Origin: Paenarthrobacter sp. PH39-S1
Lineage (GTDB): Bacteria; Actinomycetota; Actinomycetes; Actinomycetales; Micrococcaceae
Assembly: GCF_030063245.1 (NCBI RefSeq)
Contig: NZ_JASISR010000032.1
Coordinates: 1-44,128 of the forward strand
Length of the DNA stretch: 44,128 nt
Direction: 5' to 3'
Shown here: in pieces, positions 5,322-44,128 of the stretch
Layout: each line of letters starts with the position of its first letter
Numbering within the stretch: the stretch's first letter is position 1
The notes under the pieces: generated by a model
Databases searched by the model: none
What the model saw: only the letters and a program-made list of their open reading frames with translations
Told to the model about the DNA's origin: nothing
Position numbers and translations under genes: made by a program

Positions 5322-6533
5322 TCACGTCTCTGCTCGGATCGTCCGCTGCGCCAATGCCGCGGCCGGAAGCTGGGCCGCGATAATGCAGCCTTCGCCCGGT
5401 GTGCTTTCCACGAACAGCACACCGCCCAATTGCTCCACCCGCTGACGCATCGCGCGCAGGCCGTAACCCCCGGCGGCCGTGGGCTCCGGGACTGCCGCCG
5501 GGTCGAAGCCGGCGCCGTCGTCGAAAATGTCAAGCGATACAGAGTCCGGCAGATAGCTAACGGTCACACTGACCGTCAGTGCATGTGCATGGAGCTTGAT
5601 GTTCGCTGCGGCGCTTTGAGCGACGCGCAGCAGAACGTGCCGGATATCGGGCGGCAACGGCCGCGGCGTTCCATTACTGAAGAACCGGGCGTCCGGAAGA
5701 TACAGCAGGACCGCTTGCTGCAGTGCCTCCCCGAGCGGCAGCGCGTCCGCCGGAGAGGACAGAGTGTGTACCAGGTTCCGGGTTTCGGACAAATTGCTGC
5801 GCAGCAGAACGGTCGCCGCCGCCAGATTTCTGCGCGCTACCCCGTCAGGCTGTTCCCAGGACTGCTCCGCTGCTTCCAGATGCAGCAGGCTGCTGGTCAA
5901 TCCCTGCGTCACGGTATCGTGGAGCTCACCCGCCAGCCGCTCCCGCTCGGCGATGATTTTCGCGTCGTGCTCATGCCCGGCCAGCTGAGCCTGAGCCGCA
6001 GACACCTCATGCAGTAGCCGAGTGCGGGTTCTGGCATCGCGCTCGATCCGTTCGTAGACCAGCAACAGCAGGACGCCGGCGGCCAGCGGCCCGAGCAGCA
6101 TCGCGTAGTCCGTTCCACCACCGAGCAGAAACAGCCCCAGGGCCGCGGGAACGACGACTCCTGCCACGCCCACGTATCCGGCCCGGCCGGAGAACGTACT
6201 GCGGCAGACGAAAAACAGGGAAAAAGCACACCATGCGAAACTCGGGGCGTTCAGGACCAGCCCGGCCCACAACAGCACCAGCAGCCACACCCAGCCCGCG
6301 GTTTTGTCGTGCCGCGGAGCCGCGGCAATAACCCCATAGACCCCGGCCAGCGCGAGGCTGAGCACCAGCACCAGCTGCCAGCGCTGATCCAGTCCATGAT
6401 GGGTCAGATAGCGGACCGCCGAAGCACCGAGCAGGAGCAGGAAACTCAGATGCACCACCCGCCCGGCGCGCCCCGGAAGCCCGGCCAAGTCCGCAGGCAT
6501 GGCGGGTTTCTTACCCGGCGCCGCTGTGTTCAT
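5322..6533 (-). CDS. Sensor histidine kinase with membrane-embedded N-terminus (SenS-like)
   Basis: This 403-residue kinase has about five or six hydrophobic segments within residues 27-160 and no large extracellular domain. A HisKA_3 dimerisation domain with phospho-acceptor H205 (ERERLAGELHDTVTQG) and an HATPase domain (DDGAGFDP; GGYGLRAMRQR) follow. The N-box reads RVAQSAAANIKLHAHA: asparagine N311 is kept, but the glutamate usually found four residues earlier (QEA..N) is S307 here. That could lower ATPase/kinase activity. The layout matches SenS, which senses through an extracellular partner protein, and the divergent gene encodes a candidate partner. It is co-transcribed with the response regulator. 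Confidence 0.88.
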   Translation of the reverse strand: MNTAAPGKKPAMPADLAGLPGRAGRVVHLSFLLLLGASAVRYLTHHGLDQRWQLVLVLSLALAGVYGVIAAAPRHDKTAGWVWLLVLLWAGLVLNAPSFAWCAFSLFFVCRSTFSGRAGYVGVAGVVVPAALGLFLLGGGTDYAMLLGPLAAGVLLLLVYERIERDARTRTRLLHEVSAAQAQLAGHEHDAKIIAERERLAGELHDTVTQGLTSSLLHLEAAEQSWEQPDGVARRNLAAATVLLRSNLSETRNLVHTLSSPADALPLGEALQQAVLLYLPDARFFSNGTPRPLPPDIRHVLLRVAQSAAANIKLHAHALTVSVTVSYLPDSVSLDIFDDGAGFDPAAVPEPTAAGGYGLRAMRQRVEQLGGVLFVESTPGEGCIIAAQLPAAALAQRTIRAET

Positions 6534-9222: not shown

Positions 9223-12200
9223 CTACTTGGTGGCTCCGGCCCACAGATCGTCGAAGGCGACGGTCAGTGGGGTCGGTGTGCCGGTGGTGCTGAGGTAGCT
9301 GTACAGGCCGATCGCGCCGGCTGCCTGCAGACCGGCGGTGGAGTCGGTGGTGGTCAGCTGCCAGTTCGCCGGTTCGGCGGTGCCGACCTTCCAGACCTTG
9401 GCCTGGACGGTGGTCGGTGAGGTCCCGGTCACCTGCAGCCGGAGCTGGAGCTTGTCGCCGGAGTTGAAAGTCAACCCGGAGATCGTGGCGGCCTTCAGGA
9501 TCGTATCGGTGTTGCGCTGCAGGTTCAGTTGTACCGATCCGGTGGAACTGACCACGACGCGGGCACCATAGCTGGCAGTACCGACGCGGCGCCCGATCAG
9601 ACCCGCATAGATGCTGCTCGCCGTCGGCCGGTTGAAGCCGATATTGGCCCGCACCTCCGTATCACTGGAGGAGACGCCGTTGAGGTAGGCGTAACGGTTG
9701 GATTTGGCCGGGCTGGCGACGGTGGCGGCGCTGCCGTTGACCGCGAAATCGGCGACGGCGCCGGAGATCGTCCAGGCCCCGCCGGTTTCGGCCGTTCCCA
9801 GGCCGCCGCCGACGGTGCGGGTGAATGTGTCCTGCGCCAAGGCTGTCCCGGCTGGCGGCGTTGTACTGGTCACGGTGACCGGATGATTCACCGTTCCCGT
9901 GGCGCCGCCGTTGTCCGTCACGGTCAGGGTGACCGTGTAAGTTCCTGCGGTGGCATAGGTGTGCTTCGCGCTCACGCCGGTTCCCGTGCCGCCGTCTCCG
10001 AAGTTCCAGGCGTACGAGGAGATCGTGCCGTCGGGGTCCTTGGAACCCGAGGCGTCCACGCTCGCCGCCAACCCGTTCACACTGCTCGTAAACGCGGCCG
10101 TCGGAGCCACATTCGGCGGCGGGGTTGTGCTGACGGTGACCGGATGGTTCACCGTTCCCGTGGCGCCGCCGTTGTCCGTCACGGTCAAGGTGACCGTGTA
10201 GGTTCCTGCGGTGGCATACGTGTGATCCGCGCTCACGCCGGTTCCCGTGCCGCCGTCTCCGAAGTTCCAGGCGTACGAGGAGATCGTGCCGTCCGGGTCC
10301 TTGGAACCCGAGGCGTCCACGCTCGCCGCCAACCCGTTCACACTGCTCGTAAACGCGGCCGTCGGAGCCACGTTCGGCGGCGGCGTCGTGTCGACGGTGT
10401 TCGTTAGACCCGGCGTGCCGTCCGTGGTCGACGCAGCCCTCCAGTTCGCCGCCACGGCATTGTCCGCCGTCGGCGATACCAGCTCAAGCGACGGCCCCGT
10501 GCCGTCAGCTGCAGCCGGCCACGGCGCCTGGTTTGTGTACGTCACCGAGTCGACCACCCCGCCTGTGTTGCGGAGCACAACCGCCTCACCGGCGTCGTCG
10601 AGGGACCCGGTGAACTGGCCTCCCACCAGCCGGTTTGCGCCGGTGTAGGCCTGCCGGAATGCCTTGTCGTTCGCCACAAACACGACCTGGCCACCGGCCG
10701 GGATCACCGTACCGGCTTGGATCGTCAAACCAACGGCGTCGATCGCCCAGCCGGAGATGTCCACCGCGGTGTTGCCCGGGTTCGACAGCTCGATGTATTC
10801 CCCGCCGGTGCCGGACGGGTGGTACTGGATCTCGTTGATGACGACGCTCGCGTCTGCCGCCTGCGTGGTCGGCACCGGCTTCCCGGCACCGGTGTTGTTG
10901 TTGATTGCGTTGCGGCGGTCCGTCAGCCCGTTGACGAAGGCGCTCCGGGCATAGGCGGGCGTGTAGCCGCGCCACTTCGCATAATTCAGGTTCCAATCCG
11001 GAGTTGTCTTGGCCGAGATGGCGTCCCACTGCGCCTCGTACTGGCCGGCCGGCAGGAACTGGTCAGCAAGCGTGCGCAGCCGGCGGTAGAACATTTCCTT
11101 GATCTCGGGGTAGGCGAGCATGGCCTGCGTGAAGTGGTTCGATGTGTCCGGAGTCAGGAAGAGTCCCTTGCCGTCGGAGGCCGCGGTCGTGAAGATCCAG
11201 TTGAGATCCCACTGCCACATTTCCCAGCGGCCGGTTCCGTCGGTGTCGCGCGACAGCCACCAGTTGTACCAGCCGCTGTCCTGATGCCGGATGATCGAGT
11301 TGATAGCCATGTAGTTGACGAGTTCTGGAACGTTCACGTTCTGGTAGATCCAGGCCTGCTGCGCGGCCGACGGCGCCGCGTCGACCGTGTTGGACAAGGT
11401 CCAGACGTCGCTGAAATCCTCGGTCTTTCGGGTTTTCTTCTCGAGCCAGCCCGACGCAGCGAGCGTGGTCGCCGACGTCGACTTGCCGACGCTGCCGCCC
11501 GCGCCCTTGTAGATCGCCCAATCCTTCACGCCCTGGTCGGCCCGCCAGGAGCCGTCCTCGGTCTCCATGATGCGGCCGAGGCTCCAAAAATCCGCGTTGC
11601 GCTGCGTGCGCACCGGAACAATGTTCAGCGCCCGGTTGCCGGCGGCCTTCACGGTCGCCCAGCCAACATCGGCAAAGTTGTCAGAGTAGTTCTGTAGCGC
11701 GAATTCGTCGAGGGGGTAGGGCAGCTGGCCGCCGAGGTCGAAGGTGTAGCCCTTTGGGAGCTCGACCTTCCAGTTCACCTTCGCGTCGGTGCGGGAGGAG
11801 TTGCCGCGGACACTCATCAGGGCGCCGTCGATGACCTGGCCTTTGTAGGACCACACAGCCGCACCTTGGACATCGTCCTGGCGGTGATTGGCGAGGATGT
11901 CATTGTAGACGGCGTCGTCCATGAACCACTCGATGACCGGAAGCTGGCTGCTGACGGTGGTGTTCACCACGACCACGCCCCGGTAACGCACGGAATCGCC
12001 CGCCGCGGGCTCGGAGTATGTTGTGCCGCCGGTCGTCGCATCGACCCGATAGCGGATCAGCTTGCCCGCACTCTGGCCGGGAATCGAACCGGAATACACG
12101 CCGTCGCCCGCGCCGCCCGGGCTGGCTGCGTCGTCGAGGAACGGCACCACAGCGTCGGCGCCGAACATTACCTTGTACGTAAGCTGAGCGGTGGAGCCGG

Positions 12201-37142: not shown

Positions 37143-37928
37143 ATGCTTGATGATGACACCATTGCGCGCATTGCCGACGAGCTGGTGGAGGCCGGCCGGA
37201 GCCGTGTTCCGGTGCCCCGGCTGACGCAGCGGTACCCGGAGATGACGGTGGAGGACTCCTACCGTGTGCAGAACTTGTGGCGGCAGCGCGGCGAGACTGC
37301 CGGACGGGTGCTCGGCGGGCACAAAATCGGCCTGACGTCCAAGGCCATGCAATACGCCACGGGCATCACGGAGCCGGACTACGGGATCATCTTCAAGGAC
37401 ATGATCCTGGAGAACGGCTGCACGGTTCAGTGGGACCAGTACTCGCACCCCCGCATTGAGGTGGAGCTGGCGTTTCTACTCAAGAATGACGTCAGCGGCC
37501 CGGACGCTTCCATTTTCGATGTCCTCCGGGCCACCGAGTACGTGGTGCCCGCCCTGGAGATCCTCGATTCCCGGATCGAAATGGAGGGCCGAACCATCGT
37601 GGACACCATCAGCGACAACGCCGCCATGGGCGCCATGGTGGTGGGCGGGACCCCGGTGAAGCCCGACGACGTCGACCTCCGCTGGGTCTCCGCCATCCTG
37701 TACAAGAACCAGACCGTGGAAGAAACCGGGGTGGCGGCCGGCGTGCTCAACCACCCGGCGTCGGGCGTGTCCTGGCTGGCGAACAAGATCGCCCCGCACG
37801 GTGACGTGCTCAAGGCCGGGGAGCTCATCCTCGCCGGCTCCTTCACCCGCCCCATGTGGGTCCATGCCGGGGACACCGTCTTCGCCGACTACGGAAAGCT
37901 GGGCACCATCACATGCCGCTTCGAATAA
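37143..37928 (+). CDS. hpaH: 2-oxo-hept-4-ene-1,7-dioate hydratase
   Basis: A 261-residue member of the FAH-like hydratase family (MhpD/HpaH). It adds water to 2-oxo-hept-4-ene-1,7-dioate, giving the substrate of HpaI. Recognisable parts are GRVLGGHKIGLTSKAMQ, EPDYGIIFKDMILENG, HPRIEVELAFLLKND with metal-binding acids, and PALEILDSRIEMEGRTIVDT. ATG at 37143 follows GGGAGA and lies 12 bp after hpaD; the 3' end overlaps hpaI by 16 bp. Confidence 0.93.
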   Translation: MLDDDTIARIADELVEAGRSRVPVPRLTQRYPEMTVEDSYRVQNLWRQRGETAGRVLGGHKIGLTSKAMQYATGITEPDYGIIFKDMILENGCTVQWDQYSHPRIEVELAFLLKNDVSGPDASIFDVLRATEYVVPALEILDSRIEMEGRTIVDTISDNAAMGAMVVGGTPVKPDDVDLRWVSAILYKNQTVEETGVAAGVLNHPASGVSWLANKIAPHGDVLKAGELILAGSFTRPMWVHAGDTVFADYGKLGTITCRFE

Positions 37929-38722
37929 AGCCCGCTCCGTCGTTCAAGGACGCGCTGGCCGCCGCGGACCGCCCGCTGGCCGGCATGTGGGTGTGTTCCG
38001 GCAGCCCGCTGGTCGCGGAAGTCTGCGCCGGGGCCGGGCTGGACTGGCTGCTGATCGACGCGGAGCACAGCCCCAACGGCCTTGAATCCATCCTGGCCCA
38101 GCTGCAGGCCGTGAACGGCTACCCGGTCACGGCCGTGGTGCGCCCGCCGGTCAACGACGCCGTGGTGATCAAGCAGTACCTGGACCTGGGCGCGCAGTCG
38201 CTGCTGATCCCCATGGTCCACACGGCCGACGACGCTGCTGCCGCGGTGGCCGCCGCCCGCTACCCGCCGCACGGCGTCCGCGGCGTCGGTTCCGCCCTGG
38301 CCCGGTCCGCGCGGTGGAACCGCATCCCGGACTACCTTGCAACGGCAGCGGAAACCATCACCCTGATGGTGCAGATCGAATCCACCCAGGCCGTGGAAAA
38401 CGCGGCCCGGATCGTGGCCACAGACGGGATCGACGCCGTGTTCATCGGGCCGTCGGACCTGGCCGCATCCATGGGCGTGCTGGGACAGCAGGAACATCCC
38501 GACGTCGTCGCCGCCGTCGAACACTGCATCAAGGTGGCCAAGGCGGCCGGCAAGCCGGTGGGGGTGAACGCCTTCGCCCAGGAAACCGCCCACCGCTACC
38601 TCGATGCAGGCGTGGACTTCATTCTGGTCGGCGCCGATGTCGCCCTGCTGGCGCGGGGCAGCGAAGCCCTTGCCAACACGTACGTCCCGGCGTCCGACGC
38701 CGGGCCAACCACCAGCTACTAA
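37913..38722 (+). CDS. hpaI: 4-hydroxy-2-oxoheptanedioate aldolase
   Basis: A class II pyruvate aldolase of 269 residues that splits 4-hydroxy-2-oxoheptanedioate into pyruvate and succinate semialdehyde. Family motifs are AGLDWLLIDAEHSPNGLESI, with the catalytic histidine in AEH, the metal ligand glutamate in MVQIESTQAVENA, and DAVFIGPSDLAASMG. The ATG at 37913 lies within the last codons of hpaH (16-bp overlap), showing translational coupling. Confidence 0.94.
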   Translation: MPLRIKPAPSFKDALAAADRPLAGMWVCSGSPLVAEVCAGAGLDWLLIDAEHSPNGLESILAQLQAVNGYPVTAVVRPPVNDAVVIKQYLDLGAQSLLIPMVHTADDAAAAVAAARYPPHGVRGVGSALARSARWNRIPDYLATAAETITLMVQIESTQAVENAARIVATDGIDAVFIGPSDLAASMGVLGQQEHPDVVAAVEHCIKVAKAAGKPVGVNAFAQETAHRYLDAGVDFILVGADVALLARGSEALANTYVPASDAGPTTSY

Positions 38723-38744
38723 TCCCCACCTCCTCCCACGTTAA

Positions 38745-38760
38745 CAGCGCTAGAGCGCTG
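38745..38760. promoter_or_regulatory. 16-bp palindrome between hpaI and the GabD-like gene
   Basis: CAGCGCT-AG-AGCGCTG is a perfect palindrome located 23 bp after hpaI and 70 bp before the dehydrogenase start. It could be an operator for a separate promoter or a small processing hairpin. No matching copy was noticed elsewhere in the window. Confidence 0.35.
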
Positions 38761-38829
38761 AACACGCGGGGCCCTCGGAGCTGTGGGCCCACCCACGCCA
38801 TCCCACAGACTTTTTCAAGGAGCACATTC

Positions 38830-40308
38830 ATGACCATCACAGTTGACCGCGAAGCGAACCTGCTTGCTTCCGTCCCCACCGGGCTGCTCATCAACGGACA
38901 ATGGCGCCAGGCCTCCGGCGGCAAGACGCTGGACGTCCACGACCCCGCCACCGGCAAGGTGCTGGCGTCCATCGCGGACGGCACCGGCGAGGACGCCCTG
39001 GCGGCGCTGGACGCGGCATCCGCAGCACAGGCCGGCTGGGCCCGGACGGCACCGCGGGTGCGCGCCGAAATCCTGCGCAAGGCGTTCGAGCTCATCACGG
39101 CACGGACCGAGGACTTCGCCCTGCTGATGACGCTGGAAATGGGCAAGCCGCTGGCGGAGGCCCGCGGCGAGGTGGCCTACGGTGCCGAGTTCCTGCGTTG
39201 GTATTCGGAGGAGGCCGTGCGCGACTATGGCCGCTATGTGACCTCGCCGGAAGGCAAAAACAAGATCCTGGTCCAGCACAAGCCGGTGGGCCCGTGCCTG
39301 TTGATCACGCCGTGGAACTTCCCGCTGGCCATGGCCACGCGCAAGGTGGGTCCGGCCGTAGCCGCGGGCTGCACCATGGTGCTCAAGCCCGCGAAGCTGA
39401 CCCCGTTGACCGCGCAGCTGTTCGCCCTGGTCATGCAGGAAGCCGGCCTGCCCGACGGCGTCCTAAACGTCGTCTCCAGCTCCAGCGCCTCCTCCATCTC
39501 CGGGCCGCTGCTGAAGGATTCGCGGCTGCGCAAAATATCCTTCACCGGTTCCACCGCGGTGGGTAAGCAACTGATGGCCGCCGCCACCGAAAACGTGCTG
39601 CGCACGTCGATGGAACTCGGCGGCAACGCCCCGTTCATTGTCTTCGGCGACGCGGACCTGGACGACGCCGTTGACGGCGCCATGGCCGCCAAGATGCGCA
39701 ACATGGGCGAGGCCTGCACGGCCGCCAACCGCTTCCTCGTCCACACGTCGGTGGCCGAAGAGTTCACGGCGAAGCTGGCCGGGCGCATCGGAGCCCTGAC
39801 CGTTGGTCGCGGCACCGAGGCCGGTACTGACGTCGGTCCCATGATCGAGGAAAAGGCACGGACCGGCATCCACGCCCTGGTCACCGAGGCCGTGGCCGCA
39901 GGTGCCACGGTCCTGGCGGGGGGCAGCGCCGTGGATGGTGACGGCTACTTCTACCGGCCCACGGTGCTGGGCAATGTGCCCAACGACGCAGCGATCCTCC
40001 AGCAGGAAATCTTCGGCCCCGTGGCCCCCGTGACAACGTTCACGGACGAGGACGACGCCATCCGCATCGCGAACTCGACCGAATACGGCCTGGCCGCCTA
40101 CCTGTACACCAAGGACTTCTCCCGGCTGCTGCGCGTGAGCGAACAGCTGGAATTCGGCATGGTCGGCTTCAACGCCGGCGTCATCTCCAACGCGGCCGCC
40201 CCCTTCGGCGGGGTCAAGCACTCCGGCCTGGGCCGTGAAGGCGGCTCCGAGGGTATTGCCGAATATACCGCAACCCAATATATCGGCATTGCGGATCCGT
40301 ACGCGTAA
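38830..40308 (+). CDS. gabD: Succinate-semialdehyde dehydrogenase
   Basis: A 492-residue ALDH of the GabD type. C296 (MGEACTAANRFLVH) is the nucleophile and E262 (SMELGGNAPFIVF) the base. The N-terminal GLLINGQWRQASGGKTLDVH and LLMTLEMGKPLAEARGEV with EFLRWYSEEAVRDYG are characteristic of the succinate-semialdehyde group. It would convert the succinate semialdehyde from HpaI into succinate, closing the pathway. A 107-bp gap with a palindrome precedes it, so it may have its own promoter. AAGGAG supports the ATG. Confidence 0.92.
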   Translation: MTITVDREANLLASVPTGLLINGQWRQASGGKTLDVHDPATGKVLASIADGTGEDALAALDAASAAQAGWARTAPRVRAEILRKAFELITARTEDFALLMTLEMGKPLAEARGEVAYGAEFLRWYSEEAVRDYGRYVTSPEGKNKILVQHKPVGPCLLITPWNFPLAMATRKVGPAVAAGCTMVLKPAKLTPLTAQLFALVMQEAGLPDGVLNVVSSSSASSISGPLLKDSRLRKISFTGSTAVGKQLMAAATENVLRTSMELGGNAPFIVFGDADLDDAVDGAMAAKMRNMGEACTAANRFLVHTSVAEEFTAKLAGRIGALTVGRGTEAGTDVGPMIEEKARTGIHALVTEAVAAGATVLAGGSAVDGDGYFYRPTVLGNVPNDAAILQQEIFGPVAPVTTFTDEDDAIRIANSTEYGLAAYLYTKDFSRLLRVSEQLEFGMVGFNAGVISNAAAPFGGVKHSGLGREGGSEGIAEYTATQYIGIADPYA

Positions 40309-40422
40309 GCCATGAAGGCAGCCGCAAGGCTGCGGAACGCGCCCCCGCGTTACTGCTCGGGCCGCCGCGCGGTAGCGTTAAAGGACAGGCGGCCCGGCGG
40401 TTCCGGGCCCGGAAGGAGCATC

Positions 40423-40713
40423 GTGTCCATCGTTGTCATTAACGCACTCAAGGTCCCCGTCGAGGCCGGGTCCGAGCTGGAAGCGCGCTTCGCTGCCCGC
40501 AAGCACTCGGTGGACGGTTCCCCGGGCTTCGAGGGGTTCCAGCTCCTGCGCCCGGTCGCCGGGGAGGACCGTTACTTCGTCTACACGCAGTGGGCCACCC
40601 GGGCAGACTTTGAGAACTGGCGGGCCCAGCGGCCCGGCCACGACAACTCCGCGCAGGCCCCGGTGGCCAGCGGCATGGACCTGCTCGAGTTCGAGGTTGT
40701 GGACCTGGGGTAA
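40423..40713 (+). CDS. MhuD-like haem-degrading monooxygenase (ABM fold)
   Basis: A small antibiotic-biosynthesis-monooxygenase-fold protein of 96 residues. From memory it aligns closely with mycobacterial MhuD: N7 (SIVVINALKVP), R26 (ARFAARKHSV), W66 (ADFENW) and a haem-ligand histidine H73, equivalent to MhuD H75 after a two-residue deletion. PGFEGFQLLRP, GEDRYFVYTQW and LLEFEV are also shared. MhuD cleaves haem without releasing CO. The GTG start has GGAAGGAG five bases upstream. Its place after the aromatic genes is unexpected. A quinol-monooxygenase role is a less likely alternative. Confidence 0.75.
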   Translation: MSIVVINALKVPVEAGSELEARFAARKHSVDGSPGFEGFQLLRPVAGEDRYFVYTQWATRADFENWRAQRPGHDNSAQAPVASGMDLLEFEVVDLG

Positions 40714-40735
40714 GCAAGGCACGCAGTTGGCAGCA

Positions 40736-40800
40736 AACGGGCCCCGCAGTGAAATCGCTGCGGGGCCCGTTAGTGCCCGCGCGGATATGCCGCGGGCACT
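40736..40800. terminator. Two tandem hairpins between convergent genes
   Basis: AACGGGCCCCGCAG/CTGCGGGGCCCGTT (40736-40749 and 40758-40771) is a perfect 14-bp stem. AGTGCCCGCG/CGCGGGCACT (40772-40781 and 40791-40800) is a perfect 10-bp stem directly after it. They separate the MhuD-like gene from the convergent monooxygenase gene and probably stop transcription from both sides. Confidence 0.75.
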
Positions 40801-40833
40801 ACGTCGGGTGATCCGTAGGTGGCCGGGCTTGGG

Positions 40834-42735
40834 TCAGGCCCTCTTGGCCTTGCTCCCCGACAGCACGGGAGCGAAGAACTCGGCCAGTTCAGCAGTTGCG
40901 GGCAGCGGCTGGATGTTCGCCACGTACTGGTCCGGGCGTACGACGACGACCACGCCGTCGCGGGACAGCCCGCGCGCCTCGAAGATGTCATCGGCCTCGA
41001 CAACGCCGTAAACCTTCTCCAGATCCGTGAGCTGGTACGGGCCAACCTCGGGCTTAAACACGTCGGGCACGGCGTTGATGTCGATGTCCTGGTGCTTTTG
41101 CTGGTAGATGACCTTCACGTCGAACCAGGCATCGGCGTCGAGCCCCTGGGGGGTGGCGGCAAGCGGTGATTCCGGAGCGTTCGCAAGCCACTGTGCCAGG
41201 TCGGCGGTGGGCGACGCGGCACCGGGCTTGGCCGCATCGGCGAAGACGTAGATACGCCAGCGGCCGTCCGCGGTGGCCTGGTGGCCGAGGTGCAGGGTGT
41301 TGGTGTCGCAGACGCGGGAGACGCGGGCGGACTTGAAGCGCTTGCCAAGCGGGAACCCCGTGGCCAGGTCCTGGTGGGCGTCCCCGGAGGTGAGCATCGA
41401 GCGCGTGTACTGCGTCATGAACCCTGCCGGGAACTCGGCAGTGCGAACGTAGAAGTCCTCCAGCTCCGTGGGGTTGGCGAATTCCTCAGGCTTCTTGGCC
41501 ATCATCGTCGACCATTGCTTGTCGAAGTCGATGAGGTTCTTCGCAACGACCTGGCGCTCGGCGGAGTAGGTGTCCAGCAGCGACTCGGGGCTGCGGCCCT
41601 CGAGCACGTGGCCGAGCTTCCAGCCGAGGTTGAAGCCGTCCTGCATGGAGACGTTCATGCCCTGGCCGGCCTTGGCGCTGTGCGTGTGGCAGGCGTCGCC
41701 GGTAATGAAGACGCGCGGGCTGCGGGTGCCGCGGTCCTGCGCCAGAACGTCGTCGAACCGGTCGGTGAGGCGGTGGCCAACCTCGTAGACGCTATGCCAG
41801 GCAACGCTGCGCACGTCCACGGTATACGGGTGCATGATCTCGTTCGCCTTGGCAATGATCTGCTCGATGCTGGTCTTGCGCACGGCGCCGCGGTCGTCTG
41901 CAGGCACCTCACCCAAGTCCACGTACATCCGGAAGAGATGGCCGCCTTCGCGCGGGATCAGCAGGATGGATCCGCCGTCATGCGACTGGATGGCGCACTT
42001 GGTGCGGATGTCGGGAAAATCAGTTTTGGCCAGCACGTCCATGACGCCCCAGGCGTGGTTGGCGGCGTCGCCGGCGAGGGTGCAGCCGATCGAGGTGCGG
42101 ACCTTGCTGCGCGCGCCGTCGCAGCCGACGACGTATTTGGCGTGAACGATGCGCTCGGTGCCCTCGTCCGGTCCGGCGCTGCGGACCAGCGTGACCTTCA
42201 CGGGGTACTCGCCCTCGTCGGTGACCTCGAGCGACTGGAAGTCCCAGCCAAAGTCGGGGGTGAGGCGGCTGGGTGAGTTGGCCGCGACCTCGGCAAAGTA
42301 GTCGAGCACGCGGGCCTGGTTGACGATGAGGTGCGGGAACTCGCTGATGCCCATCTCGTCGTCGACTGCGCGGCCGCCGCGGACGATGTTCTTGGGGTCC
42401 TCGTCGCCCGGGCGCCAGAAGTTCATCTCGGTGAGCCAGTAGGCCTCCGCGGTGATCTGCTCGGCGAAACCGAACGCCTGGAAGGTCTCGACACTGCGTG
42501 CCTGGATGCCGTCGGCCTGGCCGAGCTCCAGCCGTCCACCGCGGCGTTCCACGAGGCGCGTGGTGATGTCCGGGAACTGGGCAAGCTGGGCAGCGACGAG
42601 CATGCCAGCCGGGCCCGAGCCCACGATGAGCACGTCCACGTCGTCGGGAAGTACCTCGGGGCGGTCGATGCCGACGCCGGCGGCCGGCTGGACCCTCGGG
42701 TCACCGGAAACGTATCCATGGTGGTGGAACTGCAC
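40834..42735 (-). CDS. FAD-dependent aromatic hydroxylase (MobA / phenol 2-monooxygenase family)
   Basis: A 633-residue class A flavoprotein hydroxylase. It has the FAD dinucleotide motif G39-S-G-P-A-G44 (DVLIVGSGPAGMLVAAQLA), the DG motif (VGCDGARSKVR) and the GD motif (VFITGDACHTHSAKAGQGMN). A C-terminal thioredoxin-like domain of about 170 residues follows, as in phenol hydroxylases. The start VQFHHHGYVSGDPR and overall sequence recall 3-hydroxybenzoate 4-monooxygenase (MobA). It could therefore hydroxylate 3-hydroxybenzoate or, in this context, a hydroxyphenylacetate to homoprotocatechuate. GTG at 42735 with GAGGAG upstream. It diverges from a LysR gene. Confidence 0.88.
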   Translation of the reverse strand: MQFHHHGYVSGDPRVQPAAGVGIDRPEVLPDDVDVLIVGSGPAGMLVAAQLAQFPDITTRLVERRGGRLELGQADGIQARSVETFQAFGFAEQITAEAYWLTEMNFWRPGDEDPKNIVRGGRAVDDEMGISEFPHLIVNQARVLDYFAEVAANSPSRLTPDFGWDFQSLEVTDEGEYPVKVTLVRSAGPDEGTERIVHAKYVVGCDGARSKVRTSIGCTLAGDAANHAWGVMDVLAKTDFPDIRTKCAIQSHDGGSILLIPREGGHLFRMYVDLGEVPADDRGAVRKTSIEQIIAKANEIMHPYTVDVRSVAWHSVYEVGHRLTDRFDDVLAQDRGTRSPRVFITGDACHTHSAKAGQGMNVSMQDGFNLGWKLGHVLEGRSPESLLDTYSAERQVVAKNLIDFDKQWSTMMAKKPEEFANPTELEDFYVRTAEFPAGFMTQYTRSMLTSGDAHQDLATGFPLGKRFKSARVSRVCDTNTLHLGHQATADGRWRIYVFADAAKPGAASPTADLAQWLANAPESPLAATPQGLDADAWFDVKVIYQQKHQDIDINAVPDVFKPEVGPYQLTDLEKVYGVVEADDIFEARGLSRDGVVVVVRPDQYVANIQPLPATAELAEFFAPVLSGSKAKRA

Positions 42736-42788
42736 AAGAATCTCCTCATTGCACTGTGGCGGCGCGTTCACCACCACTGAATTTAATT

Positions 42789-42817
42789 CACTATTTGAAT
42801 ATACAGTTCTAATAGTG
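42789..42817. promoter_or_regulatory. LysR-type operator candidate
   Basis: CACTATT (42789-42795) and AATAGTG (42811-42817) form a perfect inverted repeat with 15 bp between, in the AT-rich region separating the divergent monooxygenase and LysR genes. This suits the activator-binding site of LysR-type regulators. Confidence 0.55.
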
Positions 42818-42928
42818 CACACTAAGCATAATTGTGTGCGCCATCTCACGCAAGCCTGTGAGCTGGGCTGCCCTGGACGGCTGAGTTATATTCCGCGCCC
42901 GTTTCCGCATGGTCGGTAGAATTCCAGC

Positions 42929-43837
42929 ATGTTTCGCTACACCCTGCGGCAGGTGCTCCACTTTGTCGCCATCGCCGACCATGGCTCGATCCGGGCCGCT
43001 GCCGAGGCCACCCACGTCTCCCAGGCCGGGTTGTCGCTGGCCCTGACGGAACTGGAAAAGGCCCTCGGCGTTCAGCTGGCGGTCCGGCAAAAGGCGAAGG
43101 GCATCACCCTGACCAGCGCGGGGCACAGGTTCCTCGCCGACGCCCGCATGCTGTTGCGCCGGGCGGACGATCTCCAGGCGACCACCGCGGAATCACCGGA
43201 CGCCCTGGCGGGCCCCTTGGACCTCGGCTGCTACAGCACGCTGGCCGACTTCTGGGTTCCGCCCATCACGGCAGGTTTTGCCGCCGCCAACCCGCACTTG
43301 TCACTGACCATAACAGAGGGCCCACCGCTACAGCTCCAACTCGACATGCTCGAGGGCAGGCTTGACGCCGTCCTCACCCATACCCGGCACGTGGTCGACG
43401 GCGCCGAATACCAGGTCATCAGGGAGGGCCGGCCCTACGTGCTGGTGGGTGCCATGCACCGCCTGGCGGGGCGCAGCGGCGTCCGGCTGGCCGAACTGGC
43501 TGACGACGACATGGTCCTGCTCAACATTCCCACCGTTCGCGACAACCAACTGCCCAATCTGCGCGCGTCCGGCCTGGACCCGAAAATTGCATGGCGGTCC
43601 ACCAGCTTTGAGGCCGTGCGCGGCATGGTGGCCCGTGGCCTGGGCTACACCGTCCTGGTCCAGCGCCCACCCCTGGACGTCAGCTACGAGGGCCTTCCGG
43701 TGGTCCCTCTGCCCATCGAGGGCCCCATCGGGCACAGCGACATCTGCTTCGCCTACCCCGCCCGGCAAAAGCCCAGCCGCAAGCTGCAGGCGCTCATCGA
43801 CTACTGTGCCGCGTATTCCCCACCAGTTGGCCCGTAA
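42929..43837 (+). CDS. LysR-family transcriptional regulator
   Basis: A 302-residue LysR regulator. The N-terminal winged helix spans about 1-60 (LRQVLHFVAIADHGSIRAAA; HVSQAGLSLALTELEKALGV). The effector-binding domain covers about 90-295 (GPLDLGCYSTLADFWVPPIT; GMVARGLGYTVLVQRP). It most likely activates the divergent FAD monooxygenase gene in response to its aromatic substrate. The last codons (PPVGP-stop) are contained in the first unit of the downstream tandem repeat. Confidence 0.9.
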   Translation: MFRYTLRQVLHFVAIADHGSIRAAAEATHVSQAGLSLALTELEKALGVQLAVRQKAKGITLTSAGHRFLADARMLLRRADDLQATTAESPDALAGPLDLGCYSTLADFWVPPITAGFAAANPHLSLTITEGPPLQLQLDMLEGRLDAVLTHTRHVVDGAEYQVIREGRPYVLVGAMHRLAGRSGVRLAELADDDMVLLNIPTVRDNQLPNLRASGLDPKIAWRSTSFEAVRGMVARGLGYTVLVQRPPLDVSYEGLPVVPLPIEGPIGHSDICFAYPARQKPSRKLQALIDYCAAYSPPVGP

Positions 43838-44128
43838 AGCGCTGGCGCGCTTTTCGGGAACCTAACCAGCGTGGCCCCACCCACCAGTTGGCCCGTAAAG
43901 CGCTGGCGCGCTTTTCGGGAACCTAACCAGCGTGGCCCCACCCACCAGTTGGCCCGTAAAGCGCTGGCGCGCTTTTCGGGAACCTAACCAGCGTGGCCCC
44001 ACCCACCAGTTGGCCCGTAAAGCGCCGGCGCGCTTTTCGGGAACCTAACCAGCGTGGCCCCACCCACCAGTTGGCCCGTAAAGCGCCGGCGCGCTTTTCG
44101 GGAACCTAACCAGCGTGGCCCCACCCAC
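43819..44128. repeat. 61-bp tandem repeat array, each unit containing a terminator hairpin
   Basis: Five complete copies (43819-43879, 43880-43940, 43941-44001, 44002-44062, 44063-44123) and the first 5 bases of a sixth, cut by the window end. Each unit contains CCCGTAAAGCGC and GCGCTTTTCGGG around a 4-base loop: a 12-bp stem with one mismatch and a T-run, an intrinsic terminator. The first copy carries the LysR stop codon. Copies 1-3 have loop TGGC and copies 4-5 CGGC; otherwise the copies are identical. It is not a CRISPR array because there are no spacers. Confidence 0.9.

Follow-up and report, generated by a model that had tools for sequence, protein, structure and literature searches.

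The window analysed here is a whole contig (C61, 44,128 bases) of a 135-contig assembly. At its right end a gene for a LysR-family regulator runs into a tandem array that reaches the final base of the contig. The features of this region are listed in Table 1. The genes at 37913-42849 encode a HpaI-type aldolase, an aldehyde dehydrogenase, an ABM-domain protein and a phenol 2-monooxygenase, and look like an aromatic-compound catabolism cluster. At 9872-10399 of the window a 261-bp unit is repeated twice at 95%.

Table 1. Features at the right end of the window (positions in the window)
Feature	Position	Strand	Basis
Gene for a LysR-family regulator of 302 aa; stop codon TAA, 43835-43837	42929..43837	+	ORF; Pfam HTH_1 and LysR_substrate
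Tandem array, period 61, 5.1 copies, up to contig end	43819..44128	+	Tandem Repeats Finder; copies aligned
Copy 1, loop T: final 16 coding bases, then TAA, hairpin and spacer	43819..43879	+	Sequence
Copies 2 and 3 (starts 43880 and 43941), loop T	43880..44001	+	Copies aligned
Copies 4 and 5 (starts 44002 and 44063), loop C	44002..44123	+	Copies aligned
Copy 6, first 5 bases, cut by contig end	44124..44128	+	Sequence; copies aligned
Hairpin of copy 1, LysR stop codon in its left arm; repeats at 43892, 43953, 44014 and 44075	43831..43858	+	Pattern positions; fold

The array had been predicted as five perfect-period copies with a sixth starting at the window edge, and this was confirmed with Tandem Repeats Finder (TRF), the window edge being the contig end. 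TRF reports 99% matches, no indels and a score of 606; when the window was shuffled 50 times with its dinucleotides preserved, the highest score was 65. Copy 1 opens 16 bases 5' of the LysR stop codon, and every full unit contains the last LysR codons, TAA and a hairpin. Alignment of the five copies bore out the single variable base of the original prediction: the sole variable position is column 25 of the unit (T, T, T, C, C), which is the first base of the 4-base hairpin loop. Units of bacterial minisatellites or VNTRs (variable-number tandem repeats) are about 10-100 bp long, head-to-tail and near-identical; the units described here are likewise head-to-tail and near-identical (61 bp, 5.1 copies, 99%).

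The LysR protein ends in ...AYSPPVGP*, and its nearest named orthologue, from Arthrobacter sp. SDTb3-6 (locus L040, 90% identity), in ...AYTPPVSP*, i.e. at the equivalent residue. The stop codon is therefore native and the array grew out of this gene end, in support of the predicted origin. A recent expansion in blocks, also proposed beforehand, is supported by the one variable column together with the absence of the 61-bp unit from 58 other genomes. The same search was negative (0/58) for the unit beside other genes. In the readable part of its own genome, from which 26 small contigs read as N are excluded, the unit gave five hits at up to 3 mismatches, all within the array. Another part of the unit gave one extra hit with 3 mismatches in contig C135, which is taken as chance. 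A phage, plasmid or viral origin was rejected, as the unit had no match in phages, plasmids or viral contigs. The unit is also absent, at a TRF score of at least 40, from the 3' regions of 20 LysR loci (14 named orthologous loci and six others, L011-L016). TRF repeats were found in two of these regions, 32 bp × 2.4 in L040 and 14 bp × 1.9 in L042, and both consist of other units.

These searches bear on the view that the array is one locus of a dispersed palindromic repeat family of the REP or MIRU type. The unit is palindromic, intergenic, head-to-tail and within 40-100 bp, as such a family would have it, but the confinement of all five hits to the array, the lack of matches in the 58 genomes, phages, plasmids and viral contigs, and the native LysR codons included in the unit make this view very improbable. 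MIRUs are described as scattered over 41 places (PMC2734929), whereas the LysR unit occurs at one in the readable genome, and the array was not assigned to the MIRU/REP class.

The 32-bp repeat of L040 (5990-6067) lies in the same LysR-transporter spacer and is followed by a 24-nt inverted repeat (6095-6145). It was considered as a related element and dismissed, its sequence being different from that of the LysR unit. None of 59 genomes contains it, with up to 2 mismatches allowed, and among 208 loci it was found exactly only in L040 itself, twice. That the nearest orthologue carries an unrelated array in the corresponding spacer may be chance.

On the 3' side of the LysR gene, all 14 named orthologous loci carry an opposite-strand gene like the transporter of L040, with matches covering 64-97% of the protein at 69.7-100% identity. 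The L040 transporter matches the model of the metabolite/H+ symporter family, with a score below the cut-off of that model. Among the six further loci the convergent transporter is also present in L011, L012, L014 and, orientation allowed for, L013; the 3.9 kb of L015 are without a hit, and in L016 there is only a short transporter piece, on the other side. In the window's own genome, contig C44 opens with the transporter orthologue, whose stop codon is at bases 44-46. Given the convergent transporter at all 14 loci and the position of the orthologue at the head of C44, the gap between C61 and C44 probably falls in the LysR-transporter spacer. The two contigs are linked by no read and no further contig. 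No readable contig begins inside the array, and a comparison of the array region with the initial 60 bases of C44 showed no common 8-mer. The transporter gene on C44 (locus L068, 44-946) encodes 300 aa and its L040 counterpart 447 aa; it lacks two stretches, and its frame stays open. This may reflect a decayed gene, a real in-frame loss or an assembly fault.

As the array runs to the contig end, the 5.1 assembled copies need not be its true length. Exact overlaps of 127 bases were counted for 10 ordered contig pairs and of 122 bases for two (102 contig starts and 94 ends, matches between runs of N ignored), which suggests that the assembly graph used k=127. With this k, the T block of the array contains twenty recurring k-mers, and the copy number is therefore an estimate if no reads crossed the array. 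From the start of copy 4 to the contig end there are 127 bases, a distance that would be compatible with a branch leading out of the array after CCCAC. The worry that the array is an assembly artefact, voiced at the outset, is thus justified as regards its position at a contig end and the recurring 127-mers; arrays are, however, no general feature of contig ends, since they touch three of 144 readable contig termini and the other two arrays are short. The number of arrays per 100 kb is 33.3 at less than 500 bases from a contig end, then 22.2, 12.1 and 15.5 further inward, and 20.4 beyond 10 kb. That one true unit, or a wrong number of units, was inflated at the contig end is quite unlikely: the peak in density within 500 bases of the ends speaks for it along with the contig-end position and the recurring k-mers, but a loop in a k-mer graph itself requires a tandem repeat in the reads, the T and C blocks supply a junction that an invented copy would not, and arrays remain frequent more than 10 kb from the ends.

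The hairpin consists of a 4-bp outer stem, a T.T mismatch, a 7-bp inner stem and the 4-base loop. The predicted make-up of the units, last LysR codons with stop and hairpin terminator, was found in part: codons, stop and hairpin are all there, with the TAA located inside the left arm of the hairpin, and no U-tract follows the stem. An intrinsic terminator is a stable G+C-rich hairpin at a gene end, followed by a U-tract. The LysR unit resembles one in having a stable hairpin, rich in G+C, right where the gene ends (-18.0 kcal/mol; one of 200 shuffles was as good). It differs in that the stem is not followed by a U-tract; TTTT runs into CGGG, and this CGGG forms the outer stem with the left arm. 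A terminator scan of the array made no call. Folding z of the 61-bp unit is -1.98 and -2.38 on the + strand for the two variants and -2.73 on the - strand. Among 11 other noncoding arrays of similar period (at least 30, with at least 2.3 copies), the fold z ranges from 1.84 to -1.67, compared with -2.43 for the LysR array, so that the strong hairpin is without counterpart there, which leaves room for a function of the LysR array.

Perfect hairpins (stem of at least 8) are commoner after stop codons than inside genes in the same genome (1031 genes): the four 25-base bins covering 0 to +100 contain 64, and the eight covering -300 to -100 contain 27. Not one of 49 perfect hairpins near gene stops has five or more T at its end, so gene-end hairpins without a U-tract may be normal in this genome, and termination at the LysR hairpin is possible. 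The designation of the units as terminators was nevertheless not upheld, the U-tract being absent, though it is likewise absent at all 49 gene-end hairpins. Insulation of the neighbouring genes, also suggested, is likewise unsupported. Neither is a repetitive small RNA supported: Rfam has no match at E up to 1 in 43600-44128, and a known structured RNA was rejected on this ground.

A working chain of terminators or RNA-stabilising hairpins between the convergent LysR and transporter genes, maintained by selection, is favoured by the strong hairpin at the gene end, by the convergent neighbour at all 14 named orthologous loci and by the excess of U-less hairpins after stop codons. We consider it unlikely, as the array has neither a U-tract nor a terminator call, a similar array is found in none of the relatives, and the facing transporter gene is shortened.

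Taken with the structure of the units, the evidence points to the LysR array as, probably, a young bacterial minisatellite (a VNTR-like locus) that grew by slippage or unequal exchange. In favour are the score of 606 compared with at most 65 in shuffled sequence, the one variable column, the native length of the C-terminus, the single readable locus of a unit that 58 other genomes lack, the wealth of arrays in the genome and 14 further spacer arrays that begin in the final bases of a gene and cross its stop; against it stand the copy-number uncertainty at k=127, the location at a contig end and a strong hairpin that 11 other noncoding arrays of similar period do not share. The reading is based on one strain of the species. 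A 61-bp stretch from 16 bases before the LysR stop codon would have been duplicated head to tail, with later growth through replication slippage or unequal exchange, perhaps aided by the hairpin of the unit; these two are the standard models of repeat growth (PMC3899988). The T/C change would then have occurred in one copy and spread by block duplication. Copy 1 retains the native stop and leaves the LysR protein unchanged, and the remaining copies merely lengthen the spacer towards the convergent transporter gene. The array is probably near-neutral, and we infer a slippage origin and a variable copy number.

Comparable loci are known in actinobacteria. The VNTR loci of Renibacterium salmoninarum, a member of the Micrococcus-Arthrobacter subgroup, are head-to-tail with at least two units (PMC4029610), and the LysR unit lies within their range of 4-80 bp; it differs in having a stop codon and a strong hairpin and in being known from one strain. 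VNTR3239, a MIRU-VNTR between rnc and fpg1 of Mycobacterium tuberculosis, is similarly intergenic, absent from related species and made of 37-79 bp units in an actinobacterium (PMC2734929). It stands upstream of a gene, fpg1, whose expression follows the repeat length, whereas the LysR array stands between two gene ends. As spacer arrays can alter expression in the case of VNTR3239, an effect of the LysR array on expression is conceivable. Taken alone, the array would be an ordinary minisatellite and a possible locus for strain typing.

Tandem repeats look unusually abundant in the portion of this genome that was read. This portion amounts to 1.91 Mb in 116 readable pieces, with 26 further pieces reading as N; most pieces are the 20 kb at one end of a contig, and 102 of the 135 contigs were sampled, 26 of them N. 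It holds 346 merged arrays, of which 154 are noncoding (coding fraction <0.35), and the LysR array has the top score among the latter. The relatives have 23 arrays in 358 kb, four of them with a coding fraction <0.35. The density is 18.1 arrays per 100 kb here, compared with 11.0 (100 kb sample), 5.4 and 3.6 in the samples from relatives, a small control chosen largely around LysR genes, with gene calls from codon scores trained on the genome of the window. Within this genome-level pattern, the LysR array scores highest among the noncoding cases.

The noncoding arrays are biased towards stop codons. When 126 of them were placed at random, the observed 17 that span a stop compared with 5.2 expected (none of 200 runs as high), and the one that spans a start with 5.5 expected. 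A stricter test considered only spacers of 20-600 bases with a called gene on either side (642 spacers, containing 60 arrays): 14 arrays span a stop (5.3 expected; 1/500 runs as high) and one a start (5.2 expected; 19/500 as low). The LysR array is outside these 14, as it has no called gene to its right. When seven settings were tried, between 9 and 15 arrays spanned a stop, compared with 2.6-5.7 expected (0 to 3 of 400 runs as high); the deficit at starts was less marked, with 15 to 75 of 400 runs as low. Gene calls were made by a codon-usage script with a coding fraction of 0.80, which missed some genes and used no annotation. All 14 genes with stop-spanning arrays have a Pfam hit, in 13 cases above the Pfam cut-off, and include those for TsaD, the delta subunit of DNA polymerase III, NusB and CofD. 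In the small sample from relatives, a stop codon is touched by two of the 23 arrays, and one of these reaches a start as well.

The ordinary reading of the bias is selection: a duplication over a stop would spare the protein, and one over a start would disturb expression. The bolder reading is a mutational bias at gene ends. Tentatively, and with rather less than even confidence, the arrays may stem from a lineage-specific burst of intergenic tandem duplications from stop codons, seeded by something at the 3' ends of genes, with the LysR array as its top-scoring product in the sequence read. The seed could be, for example, replication meeting ended transcription or translation; the first unit would take 4-20 gene bases including the stop, and the hairpin may drive the growth of the LysR array. 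The stop-spanning arrays do include 4-20 gene bases, the stop among them. No account of arrays anchored at stop codons was found in the literature, as represented by titles and the opening lines of abstracts. The stop-codon pattern is the part worth following; should it extend to complete annotated genomes, it would reveal where new tandem repeats arise or are tolerated in bacteria. The clearest other stop-anchored array is in locus L160 (contig C51, 5176-5330), where a perfect 16-bp × 9.7 array begins with the last 5 bases of a gene for an SseB-domain protein, stop codon included.
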